Assembly (NCBI GenBank): GCA_011041825.1
Contig: DRAO01000221.1
Coordinates: 1-17,919, forward strand
Source of the DNA: Chloroflexota bacterium
GTDB taxonomy: Bacteria; Chloroflexota; Anaerolineae; SpSt-600
Direction: 5' to 3'
Length of the DNA: 17,919 bases
The notes below the pieces were generated by a model. The model made no database searches. It was not told the origin of the DNA and saw only the letters and a program-made list of their open reading frames with translations. The translations under genes and the position numbers were made by a program. Position 1 is the stretch's first letter. Each line of letters starts with the position of its first letter. This document shows positions 376 to 17,743 of this stretch, piece after piece.

Positions 376-1173
376 GTGGCCTCAGTGGTTACCGAGCAGG
401 GAGTGGTCCATTATGAGGTAATAGGCAAGGGGGAACCGGTTATACTCCTCCATGGATGGTTGGGCTCGTGGGGTTATTGGCTCGGCACTATGCGTGAGCT
501 TTCGAGCCAATATAGGGTTTATGCGCTTGACTTCTGGGGGTTTGGTGAATCAGACAGGAGAAGGGAGAGCTTTCGCATCCCGGATTTTGTGGCCCTCGTG
601 TTGCAGTTTATGGACCGGCTGGGGATAAGCAAAGCCAGATTGGTAGGGCATTCGATGGGTGGGACGGTGGCCCTGAGCGTAGCCTTGGAAGCACCTTCCA
701 GGGTAAAGCAGGTGGGCTTGGTCAGCTCGCCGTTAGAAGGCAAATCGCTTAGCTTGCTTTTGAAGATGGCAGCCATCCCTCAGTTGGCCTTCCTGGCCTG
801 GAACAACCCTTGGTTCCTCAGGTGGGTCCTGAGGATGATGGCTCCTTGGACAGCCAGGGATTGGAAGGAATGGTACAATATGCTTATGAGGGACATTTCC
901 AAGACAACCCTGGCTTCGTTCTTTCAGAGCATAAACTCGCTTTACAAGACCGACTTGAAGCCTTATCTTAAGGACGTGAAAGCCCCCGTCTTCGGCATCT
1001 ATGGCCTGCGGGATAACATAGTGGACCCGTGCCAGGCCGAGGTGGTGAGTTCAATTCCTAACGCCCGGGTGAAGCTTATGTCCCATTGTGGGCATTTCCC
1101 AATGCTTGACGACCCACCGGGCTTTAACGAAACGCTCGCCGAAAACCTCAGAGGAGGGGACTCAAGGGGATAG
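376..1173 (+). CDS. Alpha/beta hydrolase
   Basis: A 265-residue soluble alpha/beta-hydrolase-fold protein with no signal peptide. The oxyanion-hole HGW is at residues 26-28. The nucleophile elbow GHSMGG (91-96) places the catalytic serine at 93. The acid is probably Asp213 in GLRDNIVDP, and the base is His240 in HCGHFPM. Length and motif spacing are normal, so the enzyme should be active, cleaving an ester, thioester, lactone or similar bond; the substrate cannot be read from the sequence. The start is a GTG preceded by the purine-rich GAGGGGGAAAAG, 12 bases after the GTPase stop. The hydrolase beginning at 17744 is a close paralogue: both share HYEVIG, HGWLGSW and YALD followed by WGFG in the N-terminal third. 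The many aromatic and hydrophobic residues in the cap region (about 130-190) fit a hydrophobic substrate, which is only an inference. Confidence 0.93.
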   Translation: MASVVTEQGVVHYEVIGKGEPVILLHGWLGSWGYWLGTMRELSSQYRVYALDFWGFGESDRRRESFRIPDFVALVLQFMDRLGISKARLVGHSMGGTVALSVALEAPSRVKQVGLVSSPLEGKSLSLLLKMAAIPQLAFLAWNNPWFLRWVLRMMAPWTARDWKEWYNMLMRDISKTTLASFFQSINSLYKTDLKPYLKDVKAPVFGIYGLRDNIVDPCQAEVVSSIPNARVKLMSHCGHFPMLDDPPGFNETLAENLRGGDSRG

Positions 1174-1262
1174 AGGTAATCTTCGATGCTTCGTGCAGTG
1201 CCAAAGCTTTCATACGAGATACACCCTCTTCAGGAATGGTCTACTTGAGCAATCAGCCTTAC

Positions 1263-1269
1263 AGGAGGT
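1263..1269 (+). promoter_or_regulatory. Shine-Dalgarno site that fixes the V4R start
   Basis: AGGAGGT lies 4 bases before the ATG at 1274. The open frame extends upstream to 1088 inside the hydrolase gene, but that extension has no ribosome binding site and reads as unconserved sequence. This strong site therefore supports the ATG at 1274. Confidence 0.8.
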
Positions 1270-1273
1270 ACCG

Positions 1274-1915
1274 ATGGCTAGGCCTAATGAAGGTCCCTTG
1301 CCCAAGTATTATTACCCCAACAAGATGGCGAGAGCATACCTTATGGGCCTGGAAGAAGTGCTGGGCCGGAATGGTCTCAATGCAGTGCTGAACTTTGCCA
1401 AACTCCGGCATCTGGTGGATAGAATGCCCCCTAACAACCTCAACAAAGAATTCAGCTTCGAGGAATTTGCTGCCATTCAGGAAGCATTGGAGGAAATGTA
1501 CGGCCCTCGTGGGGGGAAGGGTTTGGCCCTCAGGGCCGGGAGGGCTACGTTCAAATATGGCCTGCGGGAATTCGGAGCTGTACTGGGGATGGCTGACCTG
1601 GCCCTCAGGGTGCTGCCTTTAAGCGTGAAACTGCGGGTGGGACTCAATGCTTTCGCCGAGACCTTTAACCGCTTCAGCGACCAGATTGTGCGGTTGGAGG
1701 AAGATGACCAGCGTTTCATCTGGGTTAACGAGCGCTGTCCTGTCTGCTGGGGGCGCCATACTGATGCGCCCTGCTGCCACGCTGCTGTAGGTATACTTGA
1801 AGAAGGGCTGCGGTGGGGTAGCGGAGGCAAAACCTTTAAAGTGGAAGAGATTACCTGCATAGCCGTGGGGGATGACGCTTGCCGGTTCGTAATCCCCAAA
1901 ACCCCTACAGAATAG
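1274..1915 (+). CDS. V4R-domain protein, copy 1
   Basis: A 213-residue protein whose C-terminal half matches the V4R (4-vinyl reductase) type of small-molecule-binding domain found in BchJ-like proteins and in the sensor regions of some regulators. The diagnostic block is PCCHAAVGILEEGLRW followed by TCIAVGDDACRFVIP. Cysteines at 155, 158, 167, 168, 195 and 203 could form a metal site; CPVC (155-158) is present here but missing from the paralogue at 3228. The N-terminal 140 residues are mostly helical and carry a YGPRGG-like turn that the paralogue has as YGDRGA. No DNA-binding, kinase or transmembrane part is fused, so this is a stand-alone domain, probably a ligand-binding or adaptor protein and not a proven reductase. 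The two V4R genes flank the beta-helix gene, which suggests a shared pathway. The start was chosen from the strong Shine-Dalgarno site. Family certain, ligand unknown. Confidence 0.88.
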   Translation: MARPNEGPLPKYYYPNKMARAYLMGLEEVLGRNGLNAVLNFAKLRHLVDRMPPNNLNKEFSFEEFAAIQEALEEMYGPRGGKGLALRAGRATFKYGLREFGAVLGMADLALRVLPLSVKLRVGLNAFAETFNRFSDQIVRLEEDDQRFIWVNERCPVCWGRHTDAPCCHAAVGILEEGLRWGSGGKTFKVEEITCIAVGDDACRFVIPKTPTE

Positions 1916-1922
1916 AAACTTA

Positions 1923-1939: not shown

Positions 1940-1962
1940 GAACAATCGCTCGGGCTGATTCT

Positions 1963-3207
1963 ATGAGGAAAGTCATCATCAGGGATAACAGGAAAATATT
2001 TCCTTTCAATGAACCAGCCAGGGATTTAAGAGTTATGAACAAACCCCTCTGGCTGTATCAGCACGATGTCCTAGCCCCTTATTGTGAGGAAGAACTGGAG
2101 GTAAACTCATTTTTCGAAATCCCCCTGGATAACAAGGAAACCCTGGTTTACAGGGATAACCTTTTCTTTGACCAGCATTTCTTTGAAGCCTTCATAACCG
2201 AGGCTCGGAGGAGGAACAAACCCTGTCGTGTGGCCTTCTCTCCTGAGGATAAGGCCATAACTACCTATGCCCTTTTGTTACAGAAGGGCATCCACCGGCA
2301 AGGCGGCCTCTATGTAGCCGATATGTGGTATTTCCCGGAAGGGATTGAGGAAGAAGCTGAACCCCTTGTCATAGAAACTCAAGCCCGGGAGATAGGGTTC
2401 TATCACGTTCCTACTTATATGGCTCCACCTCCAGGAGATTTGGTTTACTGGGTGCCTTTGAGGTCTTTTCTTTCTATAGAGAACTGGATACACATCTATT
2501 TTGCAAATGTCCCCTTCGGCATCTTCGCAGAAGGGGCCAGGATGGAGAAAGAAGCCGACAAGCTTTCGGTAAAGCTCCGGATTCTCCTCCGCTCCATTCT
2601 GGAGCGGAAGCATTTTCTCTCCTGCTCGGAGTTGGTTAAGGTGGGGCGTAACACTCAGATTGACCCCACGGCCATAATTCAGGGGCCTACTTATATTGGC
2701 AACAACTGTACCATTGGGCCGGGGGTGGTGATATCCAATTGCCTCATCGGCAATAACGTGAACATAATGCAGGGATGCCAATTGCTTTTAAGCGTGGTTA
2801 GCGATGGGTGTTACCTGCCCTTCAGGGCGGCTCTGTTTATGAGCGTGTTGATGGAAAACTCAATGGTAGCCCAGAACGCCGTATTGCAATTGAGCGTGGT
2901 GGGGAGGGATTCCTTCGTAGGTGCAGGGGTGGTCTTCACCGATTTCAACCTCCTTCCCAAGCCGGTGCACGTGCTTCACGAAGGCAAATTGCATTCCACC
3001 GGCCTGCCTGTCCTCGGCTGCTGTGTGGGCCACAATTGTCGGATAGGCTCGGGCCTGGTTTTTTACCCCGGTAGAGCGGTGGAATCGGACGTGGTGCTGG
3101 TGCGCTCTGAGGAGAGAGGCGTCATAACCCATAACATCTATTATGAGGAGAGTGACCACTTTAAATTCAGAGGAGGACATAAGCACCGGCGCCTTTACCC
3201 ACGTTAA
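1963..3207 (+). CDS. Left-handed beta-helix (hexapeptide-repeat) GlmU-like protein
   Basis: A 414-residue protein. Residues about 225-330 form a run of hexapeptide-type repeats (for example IDPTAII, YIGNNCTIGPGVVI, LIGNNVNI, VGRDSFVGAGVVF), and a last coil is seen near 350-373 (VGHNCRIGSGLVF). This is the left-handed parallel beta-helix of GlmU C-terminal domains and other acyl- or nucleotidyl-transferases. The first 200 residues open with IRDNRKIFPFNEPARDLRVMNKPLWL, broken here as IRDNRKIFPF and NEPARDLRV, and do not show the GxGTRM/L-type signature of active sugar nucleotidyltransferases. Nucleotidyl transfer is therefore doubtful. The family may be an acyltransferase or a scaffold acting on a sugar nucleotide or acyl donor; the substrate is unknown. 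There is no clear Shine-Dalgarno site before this ATG. I kept it because an in-frame stop at 1939-1941 bars extension and the conserved-looking N terminus begins here. The gene lies between the two V4R genes. Confidence 0.75.
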   Translation: MRKVIIRDNRKIFPFNEPARDLRVMNKPLWLYQHDVLAPYCEEELEVNSFFEIPLDNKETLVYRDNLFFDQHFFEAFITEARRRNKPCRVAFSPEDKAITTYALLLQKGIHRQGGLYVADMWYFPEGIEEEAEPLVIETQAREIGFYHVPTYMAPPPGDLVYWVPLRSFLSIENWIHIYFANVPFGIFAEGARMEKEADKLSVKLRILLRSILERKHFLSCSELVKVGRNTQIDPTAIIQGPTYIGNNCTIGPGVVISNCLIGNNVNIMQGCQLLLSVVSDGCYLPFRAALFMSVLMENSMVAQNAVLQLSVVGRDSFVGAGVVFTDFNLLPKPVHVLHEGKLHSTGLPVLGCCVGHNCRIGSGLVFYPGRAVESDVVLVRSEERGVITHNIYYEESDHFKFRGGHKHRRLYPR

Positions 3208-3227: not shown

Positions 3228-3842
3228 ATGGGTGAGCCCAGGCTCATAGCCAACGCTATTATGTGCATCTTCCTGGAGGCTGTGGAGGAAGTCTTGGGAG
3301 ACAAGGGGTTAACAGTGGTTCTCAAGCAAGCCGGTCAGGAGCAATTTCTGGGGCAGAAGCCACCGAATGACACCGAACTGGGTCCTTCCCTCCAGGAGTA
3401 CGGTCTCATTGAAGAAGCTATCGAACAGGTTTATGGGGATAGGGGAGCCAGAGCCATCCTGATGAGGATAGGTCGGGCCAACTTCAGGCGGTCTTTGGAG
3501 GAGAGGGGAAAGCTTATAGGGTTAACGGGGTTAGCCCTGAACCTTATCCCCTCTTATGAGGCTAAGCTCGGCCTCTTCCTAAAGAACTTTGCTTCAGCAG
3601 CGGTTAAACACGGGAACCTGCCAGTAAGGCTGGAGGAGGATGAGGACAATTTCTACTACATTTATGATGACTCTCCGGCCCATTACAGGCCTGAGAAAGA
3701 CCGCCCTTGCTGTTTCGTAACCGTGGGCCTTTTGAAGGAAGCCGTCAAATGGGCTACCGGTAAGGAAGTTAACGTGGAGGAGAAGACCTGTATGGCCTGT
3801 GGAGATGATGTTTGCACCTTCGTCATCCCGAAGAAAGCCTAG
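3228..3842 (+). CDS. V4R-domain protein, copy 2
   Basis: A 204-residue paralogue of the V4R protein at 1274, alike over its whole length: an N-terminal helical region with a YGDRGA turn, then RLEEDEDNF, PCCFVTVGLLKEAVKW and TCMACGDDVCTFVIPK. It keeps the CC pair (161-162) and Cys188 and Cys196, gains Cys191, and lacks the CPVC pair of copy 1, having SPAHYRPEKDRP there instead. The presumed metal or ligand site therefore differs. The ATG is preceded by AAGGAGG at 3213-3219, a strong ribosome binding site, 20 bases after the beta-helix stop. No other domain is attached. It probably binds a small hydrophobic or metal-containing ligand; V4R domains elsewhere act as sensors or as assembly factors in tetrapyrrole metabolism. 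It lies directly upstream of the acyl-ACP-reductase-like gene. Family certain, role inferred. Confidence 0.88.
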   Translation: MGEPRLIANAIMCIFLEAVEEVLGDKGLTVVLKQAGQEQFLGQKPPNDTELGPSLQEYGLIEEAIEQVYGDRGARAILMRIGRANFRRSLEERGKLIGLTGLALNLIPSYEAKLGLFLKNFASAAVKHGNLPVRLEEDEDNFYYIYDDSPAHYRPEKDRPCCFVTVGLLKEAVKWATGKEVNVEEKTCMACGDDVCTFVIPKKA

Positions 3843-3859: not shown

Positions 3860-4894
3860 TTGGCCACCTTTGCCTTCATAATCCATCCCATAGACCCGAG
3901 GGGGGACGTAAAAAAGCGGTTCAAGCTACTGGGTACATATCTGCCTATCAGCGTAATCCATTTCCTTTCGGCCTATTTCCCACCGCTTATCCTTTCGCAG
4001 GTGAAGGGCATCCGCTCTCAGGCCACCGGAGAGGAGGTAAAGGGGTGGCTCCTGGCCTGCCCGCTTACGGCCAAGCGGATGATTGAGGTGCCCGTGGAGT
4101 TTGCCTACCGGAAGATAATAGCCACTTGCAAACTTGCGGAGAAATTAGGTGTTGATATAATAGGATTAGGAGCTTTCACATCGGTAGTGGGAGATGCAGG
4201 CGTAACGGTAGCCCGAAGCATCTCGGTGCCTGTGACCACCGGCAACAGCTATGCGGTGGCTGCATCCGTCAAGGCGCTGAAGGAGGCGGCCCTAAAACGG
4301 GGCATTAACGTAAGGGAAAGCACCGTTGCCATCCTCGGAGCCACAGGCTCTATAGGGAAGGCCACGACCAAGTTGCTGGCTTCGGAGGCAAGGAGGTTAA
4401 TCCTCCTTTCCAGGAGCCTGGACAGGCTTAGCAAAGTTCGGGATGAGCTTCCAACAGGGGGAGAGGTTAGGATTAGCACCCGGTTGGAGGATATGCGGGA
4501 GGCCGATTTAGTGGTGACGGCAGCAGGAGCAGTGGACCCCTTGGTAACCCCTGGGCACCTTAAAAGGGGAGCCATAGTATGCGACATCGCTATCCCCTCC
4601 AATATCTCTCCCGAGGTGGAGAGGGAAAGGGATGACGTGGTAATCCTGAAGGGAGGGGTGGTGGAAGTGCCCGGTGAGCCGGACTTCGGCTTCGACATCC
4701 GCTTACCTGAGGGGCTAGCCTATGCCTGTATGGCGGAAACCATCGCCTTGGCGATGGAAAAGCGCCTGGAGTGCTACACCCTTGGACGAGATTTGGAAGT
4801 GGAGAAGATCAGGGAGATAGAACGCATCGCCGAGAAGCACGGCTTTCATCCTGTAATTTACCCTGAAATGGGGGCCGCAGGTCCCCTATCATAG
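3860..4894 (+). CDS. Acyl-ACP reductase-like protein (COG5322)
   Basis: A 344-residue protein resembling the cyanobacterial long-chain fatty acyl-ACP reductase (AAR), which reduces acyl-ACP with NADPH to a fatty aldehyde. What can be seen: GVDIIGLGAFTSVVG (97-111), TTGNSYAV (127-134), the nucleotide-binding loop GATGSIGK (160-167), and a C-terminal YACMAET block. In that block Cys290 lines up with the AAR cysteine that forms the acyl-enzyme thioester (LFACFAES in the Synechococcus protein). The ending GRDLEVEKI followed by EKHGFHPV is also AAR-like. Length matches the family at about 340. No aldehyde-deformylating oxygenase gene is adjacent, so if it makes aldehyde the product probably goes elsewhere. 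An amino-acid or shikimate-type dehydrogenase is the main alternative, since COG5322 was first described as a predicted amino acid dehydrogenase; the conserved cysteine favours acyl reduction. The TTG start was chosen on its Shine-Dalgarno site. Confidence 0.82.
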   Translation: MATFAFIIHPIDPRGDVKKRFKLLGTYLPISVIHFLSAYFPPLILSQVKGIRSQATGEEVKGWLLACPLTAKRMIEVPVEFAYRKIIATCKLAEKLGVDIIGLGAFTSVVGDAGVTVARSISVPVTTGNSYAVAASVKALKEAALKRGINVRESTVAILGATGSIGKATTKLLASEARRLILLSRSLDRLSKVRDELPTGGEVRISTRLEDMREADLVVTAAGAVDPLVTPGHLKRGAIVCDIAIPSNISPEVERERDDVVILKGGVVEVPGEPDFGFDIRLPEGLAYACMAETIALAMEKRLECYTLGRDLEVEKIREIERIAEKHGFHPVIYPEMGAAGPLS

Positions 4895-4913: not shown

Positions 4914-5801
4914 ATGGAAAAAGGCAGACTCCTCATTGTGGAAGACGACCACGATGTTGCCGATATGCTTCGGATATATTTTGACTCCCTCGGTTATGAA
5001 GTGGAAGTAGCCTATAGGGGTGGGGAAGCCCTCGAAATGACCCGCCGTAAAACCCCGAACCTCATTATCCTGGACATCAACCTGCCGGATTTGGATGGCT
5101 ATGAAGTATGCAAGAAATTGCGGAGCAACCTCCGCACCAGCCATATCCCCATCATCTTCCTCACCCAGAGGGATGAGAGAAGCGACAAAATCGCCGGTTT
5201 GGAACTAGGGGCGGATGATTACATAACCAAGCCTTTCGATGTGGAAGAGCTGCGCCTTCGGGTGCAGAACGCTTTACGTAGAGCCACTTATGAAAACCTC
5301 AGCCACCCTGTCACCGGTCTGCCCAGCAGCAAATTGGTTGAGGAGCAGCTTAAGGAACTCCTTCAGAGAGATGATTGGGCTCTCTTGTTCTTTGGCCTCA
5401 AGTATTTCAAGGAATTCACCGACGTTTATGGCTTTGTGGCTGGGGATGATGTGCTGCGCTTCGTGGGCATTATGCTGGGCGAGGTGGTGGATTCCGTGGG
5501 CACCCCGCAGGATTTCATCGGCCACGTGGGCACTGATGACTTTCTAATCATCACCCGGAAGGAAAGGGCTCAGAACCTCAAGGAGGAAGCTATCTCCCGC
5601 TTCAACGAACAGGTGCATACTTTCTATTCCTTTATGGACCGGGAACGTGGGTATATACTGACGGAACAGGAGGGAGAGAAGAAGGAGGTGCCCTTTATGA
5701 GCCTTATCTGTGGGATCATAACCCCTGAAGATGGCCCCTTTGCGGATATAAGGCAGATAACGGAGGTGGCAGCGGAGGCCCGGAGGAAGGCAGGCCTTTA
5801 A
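4914..5801 (+). CDS. Response regulator with degenerate GGDEF domain
   Basis: A 295-residue two-domain protein. The receiver (about 5-122) has the acidic pair Asp11/Asp12, phospho-acceptor Asp54 in LDINLPDLDGYEV, Thr84 and Lys106 in KPF, so it should accept phosphate. After a short linker the HPVTGLPSSKLVEEQL entry (131-146) marks a GGDEF fold. Key cyclase residues are changed. The metal-binding aspartate of the usual IDLDNFK is lost (here FGLKYFK, 160-166), the Asn of FKxxND is Thr, and the signature reads GTDDF (206-210). It is therefore probably not a diguanylate cyclase and may instead bind a nucleotide or a partner. The start is an ATG 19 bases after the AAR-like stop, behind GAAAGGGGGGAG. 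It probably receives phosphate from a kinase of this locus, such as the hybrid kinase at 7315, but the pairing is inferred. Confidence 0.88.
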   Translation: MEKGRLLIVEDDHDVADMLRIYFDSLGYEVEVAYRGGEALEMTRRKTPNLIILDINLPDLDGYEVCKKLRSNLRTSHIPIIFLTQRDERSDKIAGLELGADDYITKPFDVEELRLRVQNALRRATYENLSHPVTGLPSSKLVEEQLKELLQRDDWALLFFGLKYFKEFTDVYGFVAGDDVLRFVGIMLGEVVDSVGTPQDFIGHVGTDDFLIITRKERAQNLKEEAISRFNEQVHTFYSFMDRERGYILTEQEGEKKEVPFMSLICGIITPEDGPFADIRQITEVAAEARRKAGL

Positions 5802-5810: not shown

Positions 5811-6563
5811 ATGTTTAAGTTTAGCACTGCTAAACTAGTGGCTGCAATGGTTGTAGAAGAACAGGAAGGGCTCAATCTCCTGGAGAGATGTGTGTTTTTC
5901 CTGTTCAAATGCCTAGGTTCTATCAGGAGGGCGGTTAAGGAGAGGTGGCTTTTCAGCCAGAGGAGCATGCTGGAATTTTACAAAGCTGGCATCCGGAATT
6001 ATCTCGTATTAGGAGCCGGGGTCCTTTTACCGACCCATATCCATCGTTTGTTCACAGATGTCAGGGTCCTTTATGTGGATAACGATGAGGAGGTGGTGAG
6101 AGAGGCGCAGAAGTTGCTGGCCGGGAGGGAGAACGTCCGTTACGTGTGGGGAGACTTAAGGCGATGGGATGAGACCATAAAACCTGTATGCCAGGAATTC
6201 TTTGGCGAATCGCCTCGGTTGGGAGTAATTATGGTGGGGGTAACTGCCTTTCTTCCCGATAACCTCATACGCCGGATTCTCAAGTCCATCTACGCCTGGG
6301 TTGCCCCCGGCTCTTACCTGAGTGTTACCAACATAGATGCCGAGACCATAAGGGCAACCCCGGGGATTTACATCCGGTACGTCATCTTTAAACTCATCTA
6401 CCTCTTGGTGGGGAATAGACATCACATCCGGACTGATGCCGGCTTAAAAGCCCTTATGCTGCCTTGGAGAGTTGTAAAAGTGGTGCCTATATTTCCCGGC
6501 AATCCGGAGCTCTCACCTGGACAGAAGGCTTATGCCAGTGGATACATCGCAATGAAACTGTAA
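5811..6563 (+). CDS. SAM-dependent methyltransferase-like protein (Methyltransf_19/DUF574 type), copy 1
   Basis: A 250-residue protein with a Rossmann methyltransferase core: LVLGAGVLLPTHIHRLF (65-81) as the SAM-binding glycine loop, VLYVDNDEEVV (86-96) with Asp90 positioned to bind the SAM ribose, WGDLRRWD (113-120), and PGSYLSVTN (166-174). This layout, a GxG loop followed by PTxxxH and YVDND, is that of the S-adenosyl methyltransferase family also called DUF574, common in Actinobacteria and Chloroflexota. The C-terminal ending SPGQKAYASGYIAMKL resembles the strand that closes the fold. The hydrophobic stretch IRYVIFKLIYLLVG (188-201) could contact a membrane or a lipid-like substrate, as inference only. 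The methyl acceptor is unknown. It starts at an ATG behind AGGGGG, just after the response regulator stop, and is followed 10 bases later by a paralogue. Confidence 0.85.
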   Translation: MFKFSTAKLVAAMVVEEQEGLNLLERCVFFLFKCLGSIRRAVKERWLFSQRSMLEFYKAGIRNYLVLGAGVLLPTHIHRLFTDVRVLYVDNDEEVVREAQKLLAGRENVRYVWGDLRRWDETIKPVCQEFFGESPRLGVIMVGVTAFLPDNLIRRILKSIYAWVAPGSYLSVTNIDAETIRATPGIYIRYVIFKLIYLLVGNRHHIRTDAGLKALMLPWRVVKVVPIFPGNPELSPGQKAYASGYIAMKL

Positions 6564-6573: not shown

Positions 6574-7296
6574 ATGGCCATCTACAAGACGGGCAAGGTT
6601 GTGGCGGCGATGCTCCAGGACGATACATCCTTGCTTAATCCCTTTGAAAAGGCCCTGCTGGCCTTCTTGAAGAGGCTTATGTCCTACAAGAAAAGCGCTG
6701 TGGAAAGATGGCTCTACGGTCAGCGGGTGACCTTGGAGATGAGCAAGAGGGGGATTGATAAGTTCCTCGTGCTGGGGGCAGGGGTCCCCACATCTGGCCA
6801 TGTCCATCAACTCCTTCCTGAGGCTAAAGTCCTTTATGTGGACAAAGACCCGGAGGTAGTGCAGCTGGGGAGGGAAATCATCGGGGATAACCCTAAAGTG
6901 CGTTACATCAAGGGTGACATAATAAAGCTCAGGGATTCCGTGTTACCTGAGGCTTCTGATTTCCTGGGTCCCAACCCGAAAGCTGGCATCATCTTCATAG
7001 GCTCCTCTTACTTCATCCCTGATGATGCTCTAAAGGAGGTCTTCAGCAGCCTTTACGATTGGTCTGCACCGGGTTCCCTCCTGTCCCTTTCGGCAGGGAT
7101 TAGGAACCCAAATGTCCCGCTCCCTCCTTCTTTCAAGATTCTTGTTTTCATATATGCTTTGACGGGCAACAAGACGTATCCAAGGACGGCTGAGCAGCTG
7201 AAGGCTCTGGCGCAGCCCTGGAAAGTGGAACAAACTGAGGTCATCATTGATTACGGTGAGCACTCAAAGTTGTACGGCTACCTATTATCAAAATAA
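6574..7296 (+). CDS. SAM-dependent methyltransferase-like protein (Methyltransf_19/DUF574 type), copy 2
   Basis: A 240-residue tandem paralogue of the preceding protein, aligning almost without gaps over the first 200 residues: ERWLYGQR (44-51), LVLGAGVPTSGHVHQL (65-80), VLYVDKDPEVV (86-96), KGDI (113-116), and a PGSLLSLS strand. The C terminus is shorter and lacks the SPGQ segment. The likely role is SAM binding and methyl transfer, but the paralogue could be catalytic or a regulatory partner in a heterodimer. The start is an ATG behind GGGGGGAATT, 10 bases after copy 1. Nothing looks truncated. It is followed 18 bases later by the giant kinase, which suggests translation in one message with it. 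Confidence 0.84.
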   Translation: MAIYKTGKVVAAMLQDDTSLLNPFEKALLAFLKRLMSYKKSAVERWLYGQRVTLEMSKRGIDKFLVLGAGVPTSGHVHQLLPEAKVLYVDKDPEVVQLGREIIGDNPKVRYIKGDIIKLRDSVLPEASDFLGPNPKAGIIFIGSSYFIPDDALKEVFSSLYDWSAPGSLLSLSAGIRNPNVPLPPSFKILVFIYALTGNKTYPRTAEQLKALAQPWKVEQTEVIIDYGEHSKLYGYLLSK

Positions 7297-7314: not shown

Positions 7315-10300
7315 ATGTTGGGGTGGGTTCTGATCTCCCTGGTAGGGGTAATTATGGGAATAGGCGTTTTCTGGCTCTTGAGTAAAGCTGCCCGGGGCGA
7401 AGGGACCTCGCCTCCCCTGGAAAAGGCTATGGTTGAGAGCGTCGGCGAAGCGGTGCTGCTGGTCGGTATAGGTGGTGAAGTGCTCTTCGCTAACCGGAAA
7501 GCCCGTGAGGATTTGGGTATCTACCCGGGCCAGAGCTTGATAACCATTGCCGAGCACTTTATCCCGAAGGAGGATTTCCTGCTCCTCCTCACCACCGAGG
7601 GCACCGTTGAGGTCCGTTATAACAACCGCCTCTTTGAGGTGTCCTCCTATAAAACCGTGGTGAAGGAAACCGTCTACTTCTCCCTGGTCTTCCACGATGT
7701 AACCGAGAGCCGAATTATAGAGGAGCTTGACCGGGAGATAACCTCCACCTTGGATTACGAGAAGGTGGTGAAGCTCACCCTTGAGAGGGCGATGGAATTG
7801 ACGGGGGCTGAAGCCGGGGTTATAAACCGCCTTACGCCCGATGGGAAGGGGCTTTTGGTTGTAGCATATAAGGGTTATCCTGAAGAAGTGATAGAGCCGT
7901 ACAAGACCACCCCCTGGGATACGGGCAAAGGCGTTATCGGTAAGGTTGTGAAAACCGGAAAGCCTGTGCTGGCCTCCGATGTCAGGAAGGAACCCGCCTA
8001 CGTGGAGGTTATCGGTGAGACCAGGTCCGAGATGGCCATCCCCCTCAAGGTGCAGGATAGAGTTATAGGCGTCCTGAACCTGGAGAGCACCAGGTTGGGA
8101 GGGTTCACCGAGGAGCACCTTCGCCTGGTGGAGAAGCTGGCTGAACACGCCGCCATAGCTCTGGAGAATGCCCGGCTTTACGAAGAACAGCGCCAGCGCA
8201 CCTTCGAGGCTCAGACCCTCTTGGCCCACGCTGAGGCTGTTGCCCAGAGCCTGGATATGCAATCAATAGCCGAGGCTGCCCTGGAGCACATTAGCAAAGT
8301 TTTCTCCCCGGATATAAGCGTGGTGGTAATGCCGGATACCCTGGGTAGAATAAAGCTGGTGGCTATCAAGGGGCTTGAACCCTCGCCGGAGCACCGTGAA
8401 AAAATGGAGAGGTTCTACGAGAAGGCTTACGCCACCGCTATGGCCTATCGGATGTTCTCATCCCGGGAGCCCATCATCATCGAAGATGTAGATAAGTATG
8501 AGGGCAGGGGGATAGGCTTCAAAGAAATGCTCCCCTGGGTGAAAGCCGTTGGGTTGTTCCCTATGGTGGTGGGCGAGACGATGACCGGGGCATTGGCTCT
8601 GGCTTGGAAAAACCCTCGCTCCTTCTCCCCCTCCGAAGTGAACCTGGTCAAGGCAATGGTGAACCAAACGGCCATCGCCCTCCAGAACGCCCGCCTCTAT
8701 GGCCTAACCGACCAGGACCTTCGCATCAGATTGGATGAGCTTGCCGCCCTGGCTAGAATCACCCAGGAGTTGAGCTCCACCCTCAGCCTGGAGCACATCT
8801 TCGAGGTGATATGTGATGAAGCGGTGCGGGCTACAGGAGCCGAATACGTGGATGTGGCCCTTGTGGACGGGGATAAGGGGATTTATACCATTAAAGCCCT
8901 CAGGGGGTACCCGCCCGAACTGGAAGAGGCTTTCAAGGACAAAAGCTTCAGCCTCGATAAAGGTATCCACGGCAAGGCAGCGAGGCTCGGGAAGTCGGTG
9001 CTCGTCGGTGATGTGAGCCTCGATAAGGATTACATCCCTGGCACTTATGATACTGAATCGGAGTTGGCGGTGCCTGTCTTCTACGAGGACAAGGTTGTAG
9101 GTATCATAAACCTGGAAAGCAACCGCAAGAATGCCTTTACCGAAAGCCACGTCCGCTTCGTGGAAATGATGGCCGTAGCCGCCTCCGTGGCTATCGGCAA
9201 TGCTATGCGTTATGAGGAGCAATTGAGGGCACGGGAGATGGCCCACCGGCGGGCCGAGCAGTTGGCCGCTCTCTCGGAGTTGAGCCGCTCCTTCCGAAGC
9301 GACCGCCCCCTGGAGGAGATGCTGGAGGATGTTGCTTACGCCATCCAGGAGACGGTGGGGTTCCGGGTGGTGCTCATAAGCGTGGTAGAAGGCATCCCTC
9401 CGATGTTGAAGCGGGTGGCGGCAGCCGGCATCCCCCTTTATATCCTGGAGGAGTTGAAGAAAGTCCAGCAGCCCCTCGAAGTTGTGGAGAGGATCCTGAC
9501 CGATGAATATCGGATAGGCAACAGCTACTTCTTCCCCCATCAGAAGAAGGAGCAATGGGGCAAAGAATTGCACACCTACACCTCCTTGCCGGTCCCCGAA
9601 GAGGCCGAACCCTGGCCGGAAGGGCGCTGGCACCCGGAAGATATGCTGATGGTGCCCTTGCGCTCCAGCAGGGGTGAGATTTTGGGCGTCATAAGCGTGG
9701 ATGACCCCGTTGATGGCAGGATACCTTCCCCCACCACCCTCGAAATCCTGGAGACTTTCGCCGCCCAAGCGGCGGTAGCCGTGGAGAACGTCCGGGCTTA
9801 CCAGGCTGCCCAGAGGCGGGCAGCGAGACGCACAGCCCTTGCTGAAGTGGCCCGGGAAGCTTCTTCAATCCTGAACGAAGATGAATTGCTCTCCAAAGCC
9901 GTCGAAGCCATCCGCCGTAACTTTGGCTACCCCCACGCCGCCATATTGATGCTGGATGAAAGCGGCGAAGAGCTGGTGATGAAGGCGTCTTCCAGCATCT
10001 TTAAGGGGGCTTTGCCGGGGAAGTACCGCCAGAAAATAACCGAAGGGATGATAGGCTGGACGGCCAGGACGGGCAAAACCCGCCTGGCTAACGATACGAG
10101 CAAGGACCCTTATTATATCAGTGCCCCTGGCTGGCAACCTAAGTCCGAACTCTGCATACCCCTTCGGGTTGGTGGTAAAGTCGTAGGGGTGATGGACATA
10201 GGTGATAGAGCTCCAGGGGCCTTCGAAGAGGAAGACGTGGTTGCCCTGGAGACTATGGCTGACCACCTCTCCATCGCCATCTATAACGCCCGGCTGTTCA

Positions 10301-13300
10301 ACCAGGTGAAGGAGCACAGTGAGAAGCTGGACATCCTCTACCGACTGGGCAAGGAGCTTGCCTCCACACTTGACCTGGATAGCTTGCTCCGCTTCATAAC
10401 CGAGCAGGTGAAGTACATCACCGGTGCCAGGAGGAGCCGCCTCTTCCTGGTGGATGTGGAGAAGCGGAGGCTGCTGAAGGTGCTGGAAAGCGGCTATGAA
10501 GACAAGTGGAAGGAGCACCTCGAAGGTGTGAGCTATGAAGAAGTGGAAGCGGGTATAAGTGGGTGGGTCATCCGGGAGAAGAAGCCCACCTTGGTGGTTG
10601 ATGTCTGTGAAGACCCCCGCAACACCGGGGTGGCCTTGGAGAAATCCAGGCGCTTTGGAACCAAGTCGGTTATCGTGGCCCCCCTCATTGCCAAGGGGAA
10701 AGTGATGGGGACATTGACCGCTGCCAACCTCCGGGAGGACCCTGTCTTCACCGAGGAAGACCTCAACATCGTGATGATGCTCGCAGACCTGGCAGCTGTG
10801 GCCATCGAAAATGCCCGTGTTTTTGAGGAAGAGAGAAGGCGCCGTGAACTGGCCCTTGCCCTCCGGGAGATGGGCCAGCTCCTCTCCTCAACGTTAGACC
10901 TGAACACCATCATAAACCAGGCTTTGGATTACCTCAAGCGCCTGGTGGATTACGACACCGCTTCCCTCTCCCTGCTGGAGGACCATACCCTGCGCATCGT
11001 GGCCGCCAGAGGGTTTGGGGAGCAGACGAAGGAGGTGCTGGAGACCACCTTTGATGCCGAGAGGAACATCCCCTTCCGGCGGATGCAGCAGATCCGCAGG
11101 CCCGTGCTCATAAGGGATACCAGGGAAGAGAACATCCTGGAGAAAGTAGCTGGCGTGGAGCGCATCCGCTCCTGGATAGGGGCGCCCATTATCTACAAGG
11201 ACAAGATAATAGGGCAGTTGGCTGTAGATAAGGAAATCCCCAACTTCTTCACCGAAGAGGACGCCGAAGTGGTGATGATTTTCGCCGGGCAATTGGCGGC
11301 GGCCATCGAGAATGCCCGGCTTTATCAGGAGCTCAGGAAATTTGCCCAGGAATTGGAGAAGAGGGTCGAGGAGAGGACAGCCGAACTCCGGAAGGCGTTG
11401 GAGGACCTGTCCCTGGAGCGAGACCGGGTTGAGAACCTCTACCGGATAACCAGGGAACTGGTGACGACGCTGGATATAGACCGGGTGCTGAACGAGGCCC
11501 TGCGGATGATGCACGAAGCTGTGGGAGCGCCTCAGGGTGCTATACTCCTGCTCGACCCCTCCACCAATCACTTTGTCTACCGGGCAGCTTTCGGGAGGAA
11601 GAAGCCGTTGCCCAGGGGAGGCAAGCCCACTCCCCTCAGGCCTGGCTATGGCCTCGCCGGATGGGTTGCTCAGAAGAGGGAGCCCGTCATCGTTGAAGAT
11701 GTGTCCAAAGACCCCAGGTGGGTGTCCTTCGATTTGGAGGTGGATAAAGTGCGCAAATCGGCCCTGGCTGTCCCCCTCGCTGTGGGTGCGGATGTCCTGG
11801 GCGTGATGCTCCTCTTCCACCCTCAACCCGGCTATTTCACCGAAGACCACTTGAGGCTGGTCTCGGCGGCAGCTTCTCAGGTGGCCCAGGCCATCAACAA
11901 CGCCGAACTCTATCGCCTCATCACCGACCAGGCCCAGCGCCTTGGTGAGATGCTTCAGGAGCAGGCAGCCGAAGCCTCCCGGGTGCAGGCCATCCTCACA
12001 TCCGTTGCCGACGGCATCCTCGTTATAGACGAAAATGACCGGGTGTTTATGATCAACCCGGCTGCCGAAAACATCCTGAACCTGAGGGGAGGGGAGTTAA
12101 CCGGGCATCCTGTCCGGGACATCCTGGCATTAACCGCAGAAGAGGACAAGGATATGGTATTGCGCTTCTACACTGAGCTCCTGCTCAACAAGGCCAAGCT
12201 TGCCGAGGGAAGGGAACCTGTGAGCTTCAGGGTGGAGGGGAAGCGCAAAGTTGTAGAAGTCTCCCTCTCCCCTGCCCCAATAGGAGCAGGAGGGGGCCTT
12301 GGAGTCGTGGCTGTCTTGAGGGACATCACCAGGGAAGTAGAGATAGACCGGATGAAGACGGAGTTCATCTCCACAGTCTCCCACGAACTCCGCACGCCGA
12401 TGACCTCCATCAAGGGGTATACCGACCTGCTCTATATGGGGATGGTGGGTGAGCTCAATGAGCGTCAGAAGCGATTCCTCCGGATTGTGAAGAACAACGC
12501 CGACAGGTTGGCCACCCTGGTTAGCGACATCCTGGACATCTCCCGCATCGAAAGCGGTAGGATTAGGCTTAACCTCCAGCCTGTAGACCTGACAGAGGTG
12601 CTGGACGAAGTTACCCCCGTGTTCCAGCGCACTATAGAGGAGAAGTCCCTCAATTACATCGTTAACATCCCCGATGACCTGCCTCCTCTATGGGCTGATA
12701 GGGACCGCCTGAACCAAATCCTCACCAATCTCATCTCCAATGCCTGCAACTACACGACTGAAGGCGGTACGGTAAAAGTGGAAGCCAGGGTGGTAGACGA
12801 CAAAGTACAGGTGGATGTCACTGATACCGGCATTGGCATCGCCCCGGAGGACCTCCCGAAGGTGTTCGACCGCTTCTTCAGGGCTGATAACCCGGTGGTG
12901 AGGCAAAGCCCTGGAACCGGCCTTGGCCTTTCCATAACCAAGGCCTTCGTAGAGATGCATGGCGGGGAAATCTGGGTCAGAAGCCAGCTTGGCAAAGGTT
13001 CCACCTTCAGCTTCACCATCCCCATAGCTGAGGCGGAGGCCCCCGAAAAGGTGGAGAGGCCCACCCCTGTCAGGGAGCGCAGGAAGATCCTGGTGGTGGA
13101 TGATGACAGGGATGTAGCTGAATTAATCCGACATAACCTGGAGAAGGAAGGTTACGAGGCTACCATAGCGTTGAGCGGGAAGGACGCTTTATGGCTGGCT
13201 AAGGAGCTTTCCCCGGACCTGATAACCCTGGATGTTCTCCTGGGGGATATGGATGGCTTTGAGGTATTAGAGCAACTCAAAGCTGATGAAGCCACAGCAT

Positions 13301-13827
13301 CCATCCCTGTGATAATTGTATCGGTCCTGGCCGAGCAGGAAAAGGGCTTCGCCCTTGGGGCTGCCGATTACGTGATAAAGCCCTTCGAGGAAGAGAGGCT
13401 CCTGCGGAGCGTGCGCAACCTCTTGGAAAGCTTGGACGGAGGTAAGCTGGACAAAATCCTGGTTGTGGATGATGATAAGGATATAACCGGATGGCTGGTG
13501 GAGGTCCTGAGCAGGCACAATTACCGGGTACGGGGGGTTTACAGCGGCGAGGAAGCCCTCAAAGCTGTTGAAGAAGAACCGCCTGATTTGATCCTCCTCG
13601 ACCTCAAGATGCCGGGGATGGATGGGTATGAGGTGTTGAAGAGGTTAAGGGCTCAGGAGACCACTCGCCACATTCCCATCATAGTCATAACGGCCAGCCC
13701 CGTGGATAAGGAGAAGGCAAAGGTGAAAGTGCTCGGCTTGGGAGCTAAACGATTGCTCGTAAAACCGTTCAGCGCCGAAACCCTTGTAGGGGAGATTAAG
13801 AGGGTCATCTCCGAACCTTGGACATAA
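7315..13827 (+). CDS. Giant hybrid histidine kinase: TM, PAS, 8 GAF, PAS, HisKA, HATPase, REC, REC
   Basis: A 2170-residue protein. One N-terminal membrane helix (about 2-23) has no obvious extracellular domain, so sensing is probably cytoplasmic. A PAS-like domain (35-135) is followed by eight GAF domains at about 140-292, 295-468, 470-642, 644-838, 839-1004, 1005-1177, 1178-1342 and 1376-1555. Each ends in a recognisable variant of the [10 protein letters not shown] helix. A coiled coil (1343-1374) precedes GAF8. A second PAS is at 1557-1680. HisKA carries SHELRTP with phospho-acceptor His1690. The ATPase has N-box Asn1809, DTGIGI and GTGLGLSI. Two receivers carry Asp1973 and Asp2096 and their KPF lysines; no HPt is fused, so output should pass to a separate phosphotransfer protein or regulator. 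All kinase motifs look intact. The start is an ATG behind AGAGGTGAGG. The ligands of the GAF domains cannot be read from the sequence. Confidence 0.93.
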
Positions 13828-13866: not shown

Positions 13867-14772
13867 ATGTCAACTTTGGCCTTCTTGGTTAATGAAGATG
13901 CCGAATTGGTGGAAAGGCAATTGACCGAAGAGCGCCGCTACGCCCGTTTCCTGGGGATACTGACCCTGGTAGTGGCTGCACTTGTGGTGGGTGTTACGGA
14001 AAGGACGGTGAACTCCATAGCCCTATCAGCTTTCATCAGTGAGGTTGGCTCCCTCTGCCTCTACCTCTTTGCTCCGATGTGGTTCATACTGTGGCGGAGG
14101 ATGGGCAAGCGGGCTTTCAGGTATTCCCTGGCGGTATATGCTTTCTCGGTAGCCGTGATGGCCTTGGTGGATTACACCACCAAAATGGGATTAACCAAGC
14201 CCTTGCATATATCCCCACGGGCCGAAGACCCCATCCTTATGCTGGGGTTCCTTATGCTCCTGCCCTGGGCACCCTTCCTGCTTGTCGCCAGGAAATACCC
14301 CTCCGAGGCCCGTCGGGTTGGCCTTTGCTTCTCCAGGTGGGCTGAGAACATTGGGATAGGGTTGCTGGCTGGTTTAGCCCTGGGTGTCCATCTCCTCACA
14401 GTGGCTCTTATCATAAGACATCCCGTCTTTCCCCGGAAAATCCCTTATACCCTGTGGATGGTCTTCTACGAATTTGGGATCCAATCTATGAGTGAGGAGC
14501 TTTTCTTCAGGGGTTTCCTTTTCAATTATCTCCACAACTATGAGGGTTGGGGGATGTGGAAGTCAGCCTTTATCACCGCCTTTGCCAACGTCTTAATCTA
14601 TATGATGAAAACCTCCTGGACAGAGCTGGCCTTTGTCACCCTGGCGGCTTTGTTCTACATCCTCACGATGGCGGTTATGAACGCTCTCCTCTATCGGTGG
14701 AGGAATAACATCTTGTGCTGTTGGATGAGCAATGTGTTCTTCAGTTTGACCACCACTTTAGTTGTAAGTTAG
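13867..14772 (+). CDS. CPBP-family (CAAX protease/bacteriocin-processing) membrane protein, degenerate active site
   Basis: A 301-residue polytopic membrane protein with roughly seven or eight hydrophobic helices. The motif SEELFFRG (209-216), giving EExxxR at Glu210/Glu211/Arg215, is the first signature of the CPBP intramembrane metalloprotease family (Rce1/Abi). In active members a second motif FxxxH and a third HxxxN/D supply metal-binding histidines. Here the corresponding positions read FANVL (239-243) and CWMSN (285-289), so both histidines are replaced (Leu243 and Cys285) and catalysis is doubtful. It may be a pseudo-protease acting as a membrane partner for the kinases on either side. 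The alternative, that I have misaligned motifs 2 and 3, is possible because the helices are hydrophobic and variable. The start is an ATG behind GGGGGGAAG. The gap to the next gene is 10 bases. Confidence 0.78.
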   Translation: MSTLAFLVNEDAELVERQLTEERRYARFLGILTLVVAALVVGVTERTVNSIALSAFISEVGSLCLYLFAPMWFILWRRMGKRAFRYSLAVYAFSVAVMALVDYTTKMGLTKPLHISPRAEDPILMLGFLMLLPWAPFLLVARKYPSEARRVGLCFSRWAENIGIGLLAGLALGVHLLTVALIIRHPVFPRKIPYTLWMVFYEFGIQSMSEELFFRGFLFNYLHNYEGWGMWKSAFITAFANVLIYMMKTSWTELAFVTLAALFYILTMAVMNALLYRWRNNILCCWMSNVFFSLTTTLVVS

Positions 14773-14782: not shown

Positions 14783-17356
14783 GTGAGGAGACGGTCGTCT
14801 GTTCCTGCGTTAGTAGCAATGATATTGATTGCCCTTATAACCTGGGCTTTGTTCCAGGTTGCCACCGAGGAGAACCCTGTCCCTGCCATTCGCTACCTTT
14901 ACTTCATACCTGTGCTCCTGATCTCCTTCTATTATGGCTTAAGTATGGGCTTATTGGCCACCTTTGCGGTGGCCTCAATTATGCTCCCCCGCCTTCTCCT
15001 CATAGCTAAGGTTCATTTCTTCAGCGAGAAAGTGTCCTCGATAGTGGCTGAGCTCTTACTCCTGGCTTTGGGGGCCATTGCCATAGACCAGTGGTTTGGG
15101 AGTCAGCAGAGGCAGCGGGATTTTTACCGCACCCTTAGTGACCTGGGTGAACTCTTCGCCAGCCGGGCGGACCCCGACGCCATCCTGAGGATGATGCTGG
15201 AAGAATCCGCCCGCATTTTTGGAGCTACCTGGGGCGAAATCATCATCAAGGTTAATGGGCGACTTCGGCGTAAAGTTCGCCTGGGCGAGGGAGGAAATGC
15301 CCCCTCCGAGATCCCCCTTCCCCCAGAAGGGAGGAAAACTCTGGCCGAGAAAATAATAGATGAAGGCCGCAGCTACCTGATAAACAACCTGGAGATAGAT
15401 GTGCGGTTTTCCAGGTGGTTTAAGGATGGCCCCCGCATAAATTCGTTTATGGCCGTCCCCATCCGAAGGCGAGGGGAGCCTTTCGGCTTGATTGCCCTGG
15501 GCAACAAGTTCGATGGCCCCTTCACCAAAGATGAATTGGCGATGTTGGAAGCCATAGTAGCTAAAAGCGAAGCAGCCCTGGAAAATGCCATCCTCCTGGC
15601 AGAGGAGCGGAAGCGCACCTTAAGGCTGGCCGTCCTAAATGAAATAGCCCAGGCCATAAGCTCAGTGATGGATACGGAAGAGCTCTTCAAAATCGTCCAT
15701 AAGGAAATGGGTCGCCTTGTGGACGTTACCAATTTCTACATTGCCCTCTATAACCCTGAGAGGGAAGAGATAGAGTTTGCCTTCGCCGTTGAAGATGGCA
15801 AGATGCTGGACAAGGCCCGCCTTGAAAGGGCAACTCGAAAGATGCGGCCCAGCGGCCTGACGGAGTACATAATTCGGACGGGGAAGCCCCTTTTCCTCCC
15901 CTCCCGGTTGGAGGAGGAACTCGAACGCCTTGGCATCCAGCCGATAGGGCGCTTGGCCCGCAGTTGGATGGGGGTCCCGATGATTGCCCACGGCAAAGTC
16001 ATCGGGGTTATGGCCGTTCAGGATTATGAGAGGGAAAATGCTTACACCCGTGATGACCTGGAAACCCTCCAGAACATAGCCAATCAGACGGCCATAGCCC
16101 TGGAGAACGCCCGCCTGTTGGAGAAGACAGACGAAGCCCTGGCTCAGAGGGTGAGGGAATTGACCACCCTCAGGGAGATTGACCGGGAACTGGCGATGGC
16201 TTGTCTGGACCTGACCAGGGTGCTAAATTTGGTCCTGGAGAGGGCCATAGCCGCCACCGGAGCCGCAGCCGGAGCCTTAGCTTTGCTCGAAGAGAGGGAG
16301 GCCGGCAAGGGGCTTTACGTCCTGGCCCAGAAAGGTTATCCTGAAGAATTCAAGTATTATATGAATCATCCTTACCCCGTGACGAAGGGCATAACCGGTC
16401 GGGTGGCGAGGACGGGTGAGCCCTGTCTGTGCCCCAATGTGGAAGAGGACCCTGACTATGAGATGACCTTGGAATCCACCAAGGCTCAATTAAGCGTGCC
16501 CATATTGCTGGAAGGTAAGGTCATAGGCACCTTAACGCTGGAGAGCCCTTACGAGGGGGCTTTTACCGAAGGCGATTTGAGTTTCATCCAGCAGTTGGCT
16601 GATAGGGCAGCCATTGCCATCCAGCACGCCCGCCTTTATGAGGAGATTCAGAAGGCCAGTGAAGCCAAGAGCGAGTTCGTTTCCATAGTATCTCACGAAT
16701 TGCGGAATCCGATGACCAACATTAAGGGGTACACGGATTTGATACTGAGCGGGAAGGCAGGGCCTATCAGCGAGAGGCAGAGGGAATTCCTGGGGAAGGT
16801 GCGCTCGAACGTGCAACGGATGAGCAATCTGGTGGAGGACTTGTTGAATATATCGCTGATAGAGGCGGGGAAGCTGCGTCTGAGGGTAGAGCCGGTGTAT
16901 TTTCCTGGGGTGATAGAAGAAGTGATGAGTTCGGTGAGGAGATATGCGGAGGAGAAGAAGCTGATATTGGAGGTGGAGATAAATGATGCGATTCCGCCGG
17001 TGAGGGCGGACCGTTCACGGGTGGTGCAGATATTGAGCAATTTAGTGAACAATGCGTGTGCGTACACGCCTAGCGAAGGGAAGGTGAAGATAAGGGTGAA
17101 GCGGGTTAATGGATATGTGGAGGTGGATGTGGAGGATACGGGGATAGGGATACCCGATGATGAACAGGAGAAGATATTTGAGCGGTTCTTCCGTGGTTCG
17201 CATCCGATGGTGAAGGAGACAGGAGGGACAGGTCTGGGGTTGTACATAACGAAGAACCTGGTGGAGATGCAAGGGGGAAAGATATGGTTTAAGAGCAAGG
17301 TGGGAGAGGGGAGTGTGTTCAGCTTTACGCTGCCCATCTGGACGGAAGGGAGGTGA
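14783..17356 (+). CDS. Membrane histidine kinase: TM bundle, 3 GAF, HisKA, HATPase
   Basis: An 857-residue sensor kinase. The N terminus has four hydrophobic helices (about 8-27, 38-51, 53-74, 85-103), with YFIPVLLISFYYG and a following GLLATFA resembling the DUF4118-type membrane module seen in many kinases. Three GAF domains follow at about 113-277, 279-452 and 459-623, each closing with an [14 protein letters not shown] helix. HisKA begins near 628 with SHELRNP, phospho-acceptor His638. The ATPase has N-box Asn757 (LVNNACAYT), DTGIGIP and GGTGLGLYI. No receiver is fused; the response regulator 3 bases downstream is the obvious partner. The start is a GTG behind AGGGGGT, 10 bases after the CPBP stop. 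From about base 16850 onward the codon choice becomes C-poor and G-rich, beginning near the HisKA/ATPase junction, while the protein itself looks normal. Confidence 0.93.
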   Translation: MRRRSSVPALVAMILIALITWALFQVATEENPVPAIRYLYFIPVLLISFYYGLSMGLLATFAVASIMLPRLLLIAKVHFFSEKVSSIVAELLLLALGAIAIDQWFGSQQRQRDFYRTLSDLGELFASRADPDAILRMMLEESARIFGATWGEIIIKVNGRLRRKVRLGEGGNAPSEIPLPPEGRKTLAEKIIDEGRSYLINNLEIDVRFSRWFKDGPRINSFMAVPIRRRGEPFGLIALGNKFDGPFTKDELAMLEAIVAKSEAALENAILLAEERKRTLRLAVLNEIAQAISSVMDTEELFKIVHKEMGRLVDVTNFYIALYNPEREEIEFAFAVEDGKMLDKARLERATRKMRPSGLTEYIIRTGKPLFLPSRLEEELERLGIQPIGRLARSWMGVPMIAHGKVIGVMAVQDYERENAYTRDDLETLQNIANQTAIALENARLLEKTDEALAQRVRELTTLREIDRELAMACLDLTRVLNLVLERAIAATGAAAGALALLEEREAGKGLYVLAQKGYPEEFKYYMNHPYPVTKGITGRVARTGEPCLCPNVEEDPDYEMTLESTKAQLSVPILLEGKVIGTLTLESPYEGAFTEGDLSFIQQLADRAAIAIQHARLYEEIQKASEAKSEFVSIVSHELRNPMTNIKGYTDLILSGKAGPISERQREFLGKVRSNVQRMSNLVEDLLNISLIEAGKLRLRVEPVYFPGVIEEVMSSVRRYAEEKKLILEVEINDAIPPVRADRSRVVQILSNLVNNACAYTPSEGKVKIRVKRVNGYVEVDVEDTGIGIPDDEQEKIFERFFRGSHPMVKETGGTGLGLYITKNLVEMQGGKIWFKSKVGEGSVFSFTLPIWTEGR

Positions 17357-17580
17357 GATATGGCAAAGATTCTGGTAGCAGAGGATGAGAGGGATATATT
17401 GGAGTTGATAACGTTCAGCCTTGAGTTAGGGGGGTTTGAGGTGATACAGGCGATGGATGGGTTGGAGGCTTTGGAGAAAGCAATAGTGGAGAAGCCTGAT
17501 CTGGTGTTGTTGGACATCCGGATGCCGAAGTTGACGGGGTATGAGGTGTGTGAGAAGTTGAAGGAGAGCGAGGTTACACG
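16861..17580. other. C-poor, G-rich compositional island across kinase ATPase domain and response regulator
   Basis: Counting by hand, this 720-base stretch has about 86 C on the + strand (about 12%), while sampled 60-base lines of the giant kinase gene hold 14 to 22 C (about 23-37%). Codons shift from C-ending to G- and A-ending: TTG and CTG for Leu, ATA for Ile, GTG for Val, GCG for Ala. The change starts between about 16740 and 16860 and reverts near 17580, inside the response regulator. The borders do not coincide with gene ends. Cause unknown; recombination with a foreign or diverged kinase-regulator copy is one reading. Confidence 0.65.
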
Positions 17581-17740
17581 GGATATCCCTGTGGTCTTCA
17601 TCTCAGCCAAGGGGCAGGAGATGGAGATAAAGCAGGGGTTGGAAGCTGGGGCAGTGGATTACGTGGTGAAGCCTTTCGCTCCTGATGAACTCATAAGGAA
17701 GATGCAGGAAATCATTGATAAATACAGCAAGCAGGGGTGA
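17360..17740 (+). CDS. Single-domain response regulator (CheY-like)
   Basis: A 126-residue receiver domain with no output domain. The acidic pocket is Glu8/Asp9, the phospho-acceptor is Asp52 in LLDIRMPKLTGYEV, the Thr/Ser switch residue is Ser82 and the conserved lysine is Lys104 in VKPF. Length is that of a stand-alone receiver. It starts at an ATG 3 bases after the kinase stop, with the ribosome binding site GGGAGG lying over the kinase stop region, which fits translational coupling. It is therefore probably the phosphate acceptor of the kinase at 14783, and could also shuttle phosphate from the giant hybrid kinase. Having no output domain, it must act by protein contact. Its first two thirds (to about base 17580) share the C-poor codon style of the kinase 3' end, and the last 50 residues revert to the usual style. 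Confidence 0.93.
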   Translation: MAKILVAEDERDILELITFSLELGGFEVIQAMDGLEALEKAIVEKPDLVLLDIRMPKLTGYEVCEKLKESEVTRDIPVVFISAKGQEMEIKQGLEAGAVDYVVKPFAPDELIRKMQEIIDKYSKQG

Positions 17741-17743
17741 GCG

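Follow-up and report, generated by a model that had tools for sequence, protein, structure and literature searches.

Introduction

What joins an alpha/beta hydrolase, two V4R proteins, an acyl-ACP-reductase-like enzyme, tandem methyltransferases and two GAF-rich histidine kinases in a single run of genes? The question is raised by contig DRAO01000221.1 of a Chloroflexota bacterium (assembly GCA_011041825.1; class Anaerolineae), positions 1–17 919 of which form the window, i.e. the whole stretch of 17 919 nucleotides analysed here (G000:C2:1-17919). The host genome comprises 2.29 Mb in 512 contigs and is 85% complete. An initial annotation, made from the window alone, proposed that the enzymes make or modify an acyl-derived signal which V4R or GAF domains bind and the kinases report. 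We read the window instead, with a probability of roughly 0.5, as one version of a conserved Chloroflexota locus centred on an MglA-type GTPase switch coupled to V4R, in which V4R would read a hydrophobic ligand and the kinases would add inputs.

Conservation of the gene order

A search with the reductase-like protein covered 199 genomes of the class and gave matches in 80, in 59 of them to the stand-alone form. The 40 reductase-anchored loci are the top-ranked stand-alone places after the window itself. The protein encoded between the two V4R genes, a nucleotidyltransferase-like domain followed by a left-handed beta-helix (LbH), was looked for in 400 phylum genomes, 70 of which match, and 19 LbH-anchored loci, 11 outside the class and eight inside it, were picked by hand to cover families, giving 59 fetched loci in all. 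Presence was called by bit-score thresholds set in the script; because contig ends truncate a good number of loci, most presence counts are lower bounds.

The order that recurs in the reductase-anchored loci is DUF4388 (PATAN), MglA-type GTPase, hydrolase, V4R, LbH, reductase-like enzyme, response regulator, GAF kinase, regulator, second hydrolase. LbH was recognised in 38 of the 40, the GTPase and the hydrolase in 35 each, DUF4388/PATAN in 33, the receiver/GGDEF-like gene in 32, V4R of the window's first type and the large GAF kinase in 25 each, the second hydrolase in 16, the receiver in 15, a CPBP gene in three and Methyltransf_19 in none. A GAF kinase is found in 17 of the 19 LbH-anchored loci. 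Outside the class, LbH, regulator and kinase follow one another, mostly with V4R, in ten of the 11 loci (V4R–LbH–receiver/GGDEF–kinase in six, LbH–receiver/GGDEF–kinase in four); the remaining locus, L133, reads PATAN–GTPase–Roadblock–V4R–LbH–hydrolase–Roadblock. The two Roadblock genes of L133 (8841–9254 and 12342–12815), which are nearly identical, flank its V4R–LbH–hydrolase part.

Since identical neighbours stand in identical order in most of the 59 fetched loci, the arrangement is conserved and not due to chance. The initial annotation was to fall if its genes were not neighbours in related genomes; they are neighbours, and the V4R, reductase-like, regulator and multi-GAF kinase genes hold one order in many genomes. 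It is very improbable that unrelated housekeeping genes have been kept together without a common function. The composition does vary among families (V4R in 25/40 loci, CPBP in 3/40), as that explanation would allow, but the same order is met across families and outside the class, and V4R and the GTPase co-occur even in genomes where they are unlinked, e.g. in family f66.

The window itself has presumably lost its upstream DUF4388 gene to the contig edge; in the one example tested, the gene at this place matched the Pfam family with 89.4 bits. The same LbH and V4R proteins (P0001, P0121) are also encoded on a public contig of 25 457 bases, where the lost upstream genes might be found. The sister genome (G008) has the cluster in two pieces on separate contigs: C51 carries PATAN to receiver/GGDEF, and C21, fetched along with the LbH-anchored loci, a receiver/GGDEF piece followed by one methyltransferase, the large kinase, CPBP, the second kinase, a receiver and the second hydrolase. 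At one place (L089) the reductase stands alone with more than 9 kb of sequence on either side.

Linkage of GTPase, Roadblock and V4R genes

The GTPase gene was treated in the initial annotation as merely adjoining the locus. It belongs to the core and has a DUF4388/PATAN gene upstream and candidate Roadblock partners. Its 3′ part occupies 1–363 on the + strand (Pfam Ras, Arf and ATP_bind_1) and is 88% identical over 120 residues to the G008 orthologue; the contig starts inside the gene, so this copy lacks the G1 motif. In relatives the MglA-type motifs are GPFxxGKT (G1, 43/44 rows), FGTPGQ (G3, 44/44) and NKQD (G4, 44/44). Orthologues occur in 91 of the 199 class genomes, including 63 of the 64 that hold LbH, and in 57 of those 63 the two genes lie within 6 kb on one strand. 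For the co-occurrence counts 59 of the 80 reductase genomes (stand-alone form), 64 LbH rows (two partial extra rows dropped) and 91 of 92 GTPase genomes were used (G045, with a weak paralogue only, dropped); the tests on reductase, LbH and GTPase ignore kinship, and their p-values are description only.

A search of the host genome for Roadblock/LC7 gave one gene, outside the window on contig C18 and beside a further V4R gene whose product is 64% identical to the first V4R protein of the window. Roadblock/LC7, V4R and a receiver/GGDEF-like gene follow one another there (L149, 2216–4141). On the − strand of the same locus a 78-residue stretch (4111–4347) overlaps the Roadblock start and matches PF14407 (Frankia_peptide) with 33.5 bits, below the cut-off of 48; it is possibly a peptide-precursor-like protein beside a GTPase partner.

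Prompted by this locus, Roadblock and V4R were surveyed across the same 199 genomes. The linkage sample consisted of the 150 V4R matches listed, out of more than 150, in 90 genomes, 120 Roadblock matches and the GTPase matches including paralogues; left out were weaker and partial Roadblock matches, including one adjacent to the V4R gene of G077:C427. Among the V4R matches listed, 66 follow a GTPase orthologue downstream at no more than 2.5 kb and 43 a Roadblock/LC7 gene at no more than 500 bases, four having both links. At least one such link is found in 78 of the 90 genomes, and the GTPase links span 21 families by hand count.

Operon examples were fetched for 16 hand-picked V4R places. A minimal PATAN–GTPase–V4R operon was seen in five (L150–L153 and L156), PATAN–GTPase–Roadblock–V4R in two (L154, L155) and PATAN–GTPase–Roadblock in one (L165). 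Roadblock–V4R–receiver/GGDEF was found in L149 and L157–L159, and also in L160, where Roadblock is a partial match at the contig end. Three further places hold V4R without GTPase or Roadblock (L161–L163), and L164 has no V4R that passed the score threshold of the script. In a draw of 201 genomes from the phylum, V4R was present in 35, the GTPase in 36 and both in 34.

Several observations weigh against a GTPase–V4R switch as the centre of the locus. Among the V4R matches listed, 45 have neither a GTPase nor a Roadblock link. In family f66 V4R lies distant from both GTPase and LbH, G035 has V4R without GTPase, and G200 and G212 have GTPase without V4R. Seven loci of one family (L059–L065) keep a GTPase–hydrolase–LbH–reductase cluster that has no V4R, regulator or kinase, V4R being encoded elsewhere in six of the seven genomes. 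The survey of V4R and GTPase covers a single phylum.

Five f66 loci (L166–L170) have an open reading frame some hundred bases after V4R, with a TVAEPSR-like opening in four of them, and no GTPase labelled nearby.

Another possibility is a switch for polarity or surface motility like that of Myxococcus MglA, with GTPase and Roadblock, PATAN and receivers setting the polarity of filaments, gliding or pili and V4R and the enzymes as accessories. PATAN genes do occur close to those of MglA groups 1 and 5, and MglA is described as working with receiver proteins (PMC4316618, section 18); Roadblock adjoins the GTPase in nine of the 120 matches listed. We nevertheless regard this as unlikely: V4R follows GTPase or Roadblock too regularly for an accessory, and the loci showed no recognisable pilus or gliding genes, although no search was aimed at them.

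V4R proteins

The two V4R proteins of the window, V4R1 (1274–1915, +) and V4R2 (3228–3842, +), score 33.7 and 45.5 bits against Pfam V4R, above the gathering score of 31. The AF2 model has the V4R/Bet3 fold and resembles TRAPPC3, H-NOX and PoxR, the H-NOX folds, considered with a view to heme binding, scoring level with TRAPPC3. Six cysteines, a possible Zn-binding set, are invariant in 43 aligned rows, and in 39 more distant rows from the loci they are kept in 34, 36, 19, 35, 36 and 39. About 4400 database proteins match V4R1 and about 4800 match LbH.

In a tree of 55 rows V4R1 groups with the cluster V4R genes, and V4R2 joins the five V4R genes located directly behind a GTPase in a six-member set (100/100). 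The window thus carries two V4R lineages, one of them close to the GTPase-linked kind, the exact place of V4R2 being unsure owing to its long branch. The five Roadblock-linked rows fall in a set of eight together with three rows whose neighbours are of another kind. Mapping neighbour type onto the tree required nine changes against a mean of 17.5 for shuffled labels (as low in 0/200), which describes clustering only. Tandem pairs of divergent V4R genes were noted in G307:C11, G129:C39, G088:C10 and G163:C2.

By sequence profile the nearest V4R sensors are PoxR and MsvR. Like PoxR/MopR and MsvR the window proteins have a V4R domain; unlike them they are stand-alone, with no DNA-binding or AAA domain found by Pfam. 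According to PMC10933270, V4R-fold pockets bind hydrophobic ligands, palmitate in mouse TRAPPC3 and phenols in PoxR.

Enzymes and the response regulator

The hydrolase (376–1173, +; Pfam Abhydrolase_1, 123 bits) has a presumed Ser/Asp/His triad (S93, D213, H240) that is kept in at least 97% of 45 rows. LbH (1963–3207, +) was assigned by Pfam Hexapep and LbH_EIF2B and by AF2 and VIA matches. Its fold matches to nucleotidyltransferase plus beta-helix proteins have an rmsd of 8–15 over the whole model, and H357 is invariant in the aligned rows. ST0452, GlmU, GMPP and eIF2B agree with it in domain order and fold. Active sugar-1-phosphate nucleotidyltransferases typically carry a glycine-rich signature; six N-terminal LbH rows, inspected by eye, appear to lack this nucleotide-binding loop. 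A search of the N-terminal half against PDB sequences gave two matches at E ≈ 1, to an immune receptor, which were taken as chance.

The reductase-like gene (3860–4894, +; NCBIfam and PDB alignments) most likely starts at TTG 3860 and not at TTG 3812, since 3860 has AGGAGG upstream and fits the starts of homologues better, while the frame from 3812 overlaps the V4R2 gene. The product is alignable over about 290 residues with the cyanobacterial long-chain acyl-ACP reductase and the reductase part of PigE, including the Rossmann GATGSIG and the aligned cysteine (C290), which we take to be the catalytic one; C290, G160, G163 and G166 are kept in at least 97% of 45 rows. Unlike those enzymes it scores far below both NCBIfam equivalog cut-offs (122.7 bits against 449.7 for the acyl-ACP reductase model TIGR04058; 197.1 against 850 for PigE), and it sits in a signalling locus. 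It proved optional, being in the cluster in none of the 11 LbH-anchored loci outside the class and in four of the eight inside. Within the class the stand-alone form occurs in 58 of the 64 LbH genomes versus one of the 135 without LbH. In Chloroflexales-type genomes (L002–L025, L027) the reductase forms the rear part of a fusion whose N-terminal domain has about 330 residues. The fusion was considered as a Rosetta stone and set aside: no LbH or GTPase was found in the fetched DNA of 27 loci, and the N-terminal part, in the one case tested, gave no Pfam match.

These enzymes are the basis of a further explanation, a lipid or envelope biosynthesis operon in which hydrolase, LbH as acyltransferase and acyl-ACP reductase make a membrane component derived from fatty aldehyde or alcohol, while the part of GTPase, V4R and kinases is confined to regulating or localising this synthesis and no acyl signal is sensed. 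The retained cysteine and Rossmann loop, the invariant H357 and the V4R-free family L059–L065 are consistent with it. LbH, regulator and kinase, however, persist without the reductase outside the class (10/11 loci), and the minimal PATAN–GTPase–V4R operons contain none of the enzymes. We consider this account somewhat unlikely.

The Methyltransf_19 proteins (5811–6563, +, 50.9 bits; 6574–7296, +, 66.8 bits; Pfam cut-off 26), which the initial annotation had named among the genes to be checked for conserved synteny, were present in 0/59 fetched loci; 26 of the 199 class genomes match, the only linked relative being that of the sister genome G008. As core parts they were rejected; in the cluster they are confined to the window's own family.

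In the receiver plus GGDEF-like protein (4914–5801, +; Pfam) the receiver Asp54 is kept in 50/50 rows. An active diguanylate cyclase is not supported: GGDEF or GGEEF occurs in 0/50 rows, the commonest variants being GGDNF (15) and GGDDF (12).

Remaining genes of the window

The gene inventory of the initial annotation was borne out by open reading frames, Pfam and translation: 12 complete + strand genes fill 376–17740 with gaps of three to 100 bases (the widest 1174–1273), flanked by the GTPase piece and the start of a second hydrolase. The genes not described above, all on the + strand, begin with a hybrid histidine kinase (7315–13827; eight GAF domains, PAS, HisKA, HATPase and two receivers; Pfam). 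They continue with an Rce1-like CPBP membrane protein, an occasional member (13867–14772; 33.6 bits, Pfam cut-off 22.4), a histidine kinase with three GAF domains (14783–17356; Pfam) and a single-domain receiver (17360–17740; Pfam, 102.8 bits). The two-component domains HisKA, HATPase and receiver are thus all present. The second alpha/beta hydrolase (17741–17919), recognised by translation, is cut by the contig end; its relatives in the 16 reductase-anchored loci mentioned above are full length, and one example matches Pfam Abhydrolase_1.

No RNA families or tRNAs were found in the window. Promoter and terminator scans (14 sites against 10.1 in shuffles; 12 against 19.5) gave no evidence on transcript borders.

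Discussion

In the proposed GTPase–V4R module, V4R would bind a hydrophobic ligand, which might be an acyl compound or an aldehyde, and tune the GTPase, alone or with a Roadblock (MglB-type) protein. GAF kinases and receivers would feed further signals into the switch, and LbH may be an acyltransferase or a scaffold. The hydrolases, in this class with the acyl-ACP-reductase-like enzyme, would make or clear the ligand; alternatively, they would do so with a membrane lipid whose synthesis is under the control of the switch. Ligand, direction and output are what we infer rather than observe, and the acyl-signal idea of the initial annotation survives as one branch of this model, not as a result.

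The closest described systems are the MglA-type GTPases with PATAN (groups 1 and 5) and the actinobacterial conservon (group 2), which share a single-domain GTPase with GPFxxGKT-type, FGTPGQ and NKQD motifs, a PATAN gene upstream, kinases and receivers and, in some loci, Roadblock. They differ in that V4R, LbH, hydrolase and reductase are not named as neighbours of the MglA groups in section 18 of PMC4316618, and in that Roadblock here mostly lies away from the GTPase. TRAPPC3/Bet3 and the Asgard TRAPPC3-like proteins share the V4R fold, a Ras-superfamily GTPase and Roadblock in the genome and perhaps a cysteine set of Zn-binding type. The Asgard study (PMC10933270) reports these folds, but in the archaeon MK-D1 small GTPase genes are generally not in operons with TRAPPC3-like genes, whereas here they are linked on the chromosome.

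PATAN beside MglA (PMC4316618) and V4R as the proposed prokaryotic ancestor of the Bet3/TRAPP subunit (PMC2253512) are already described, the latter paper leaving open a traffic-like role of prokaryotic V4R; a term search of its main text gave no mention of GTPase, operon, neighborhood or roadblock. The literature search (titles and abstract openings, among the matches listed) returned no description of a bacterial V4R–GTPase or V4R–Roadblock gene pair. As far as this search goes, the coupling of bacterial V4R to GTPase and Roadblock genes is the new part, as a variant of small-GTPase signalling.

A more far-reaching proposal, which we hold to be doubtful, is that Chloroflexota have a linked bacterial counterpart of TRAPP-type control, with V4R and Roadblock as a ligand-gated regulator of a Ras-superfamily GTPase; in the window's version an acyl-derived ligand would come from the linked reductase and hydrolases, and the two kinases would report on the switch. 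If this were true, the V4R–Roadblock–GTPase partnership would predate eukaryotic membrane traffic or have arisen in parallel. With V4R regularly placed after a Ras-superfamily GTPase or Roadblock gene in one bacterial phylum, the role of bacterial V4R becomes a question that can be tested on small purified proteins, and unassigned V4R, beta-helix and GAF-kinase proteins, which are numerous, receive a predicted role.
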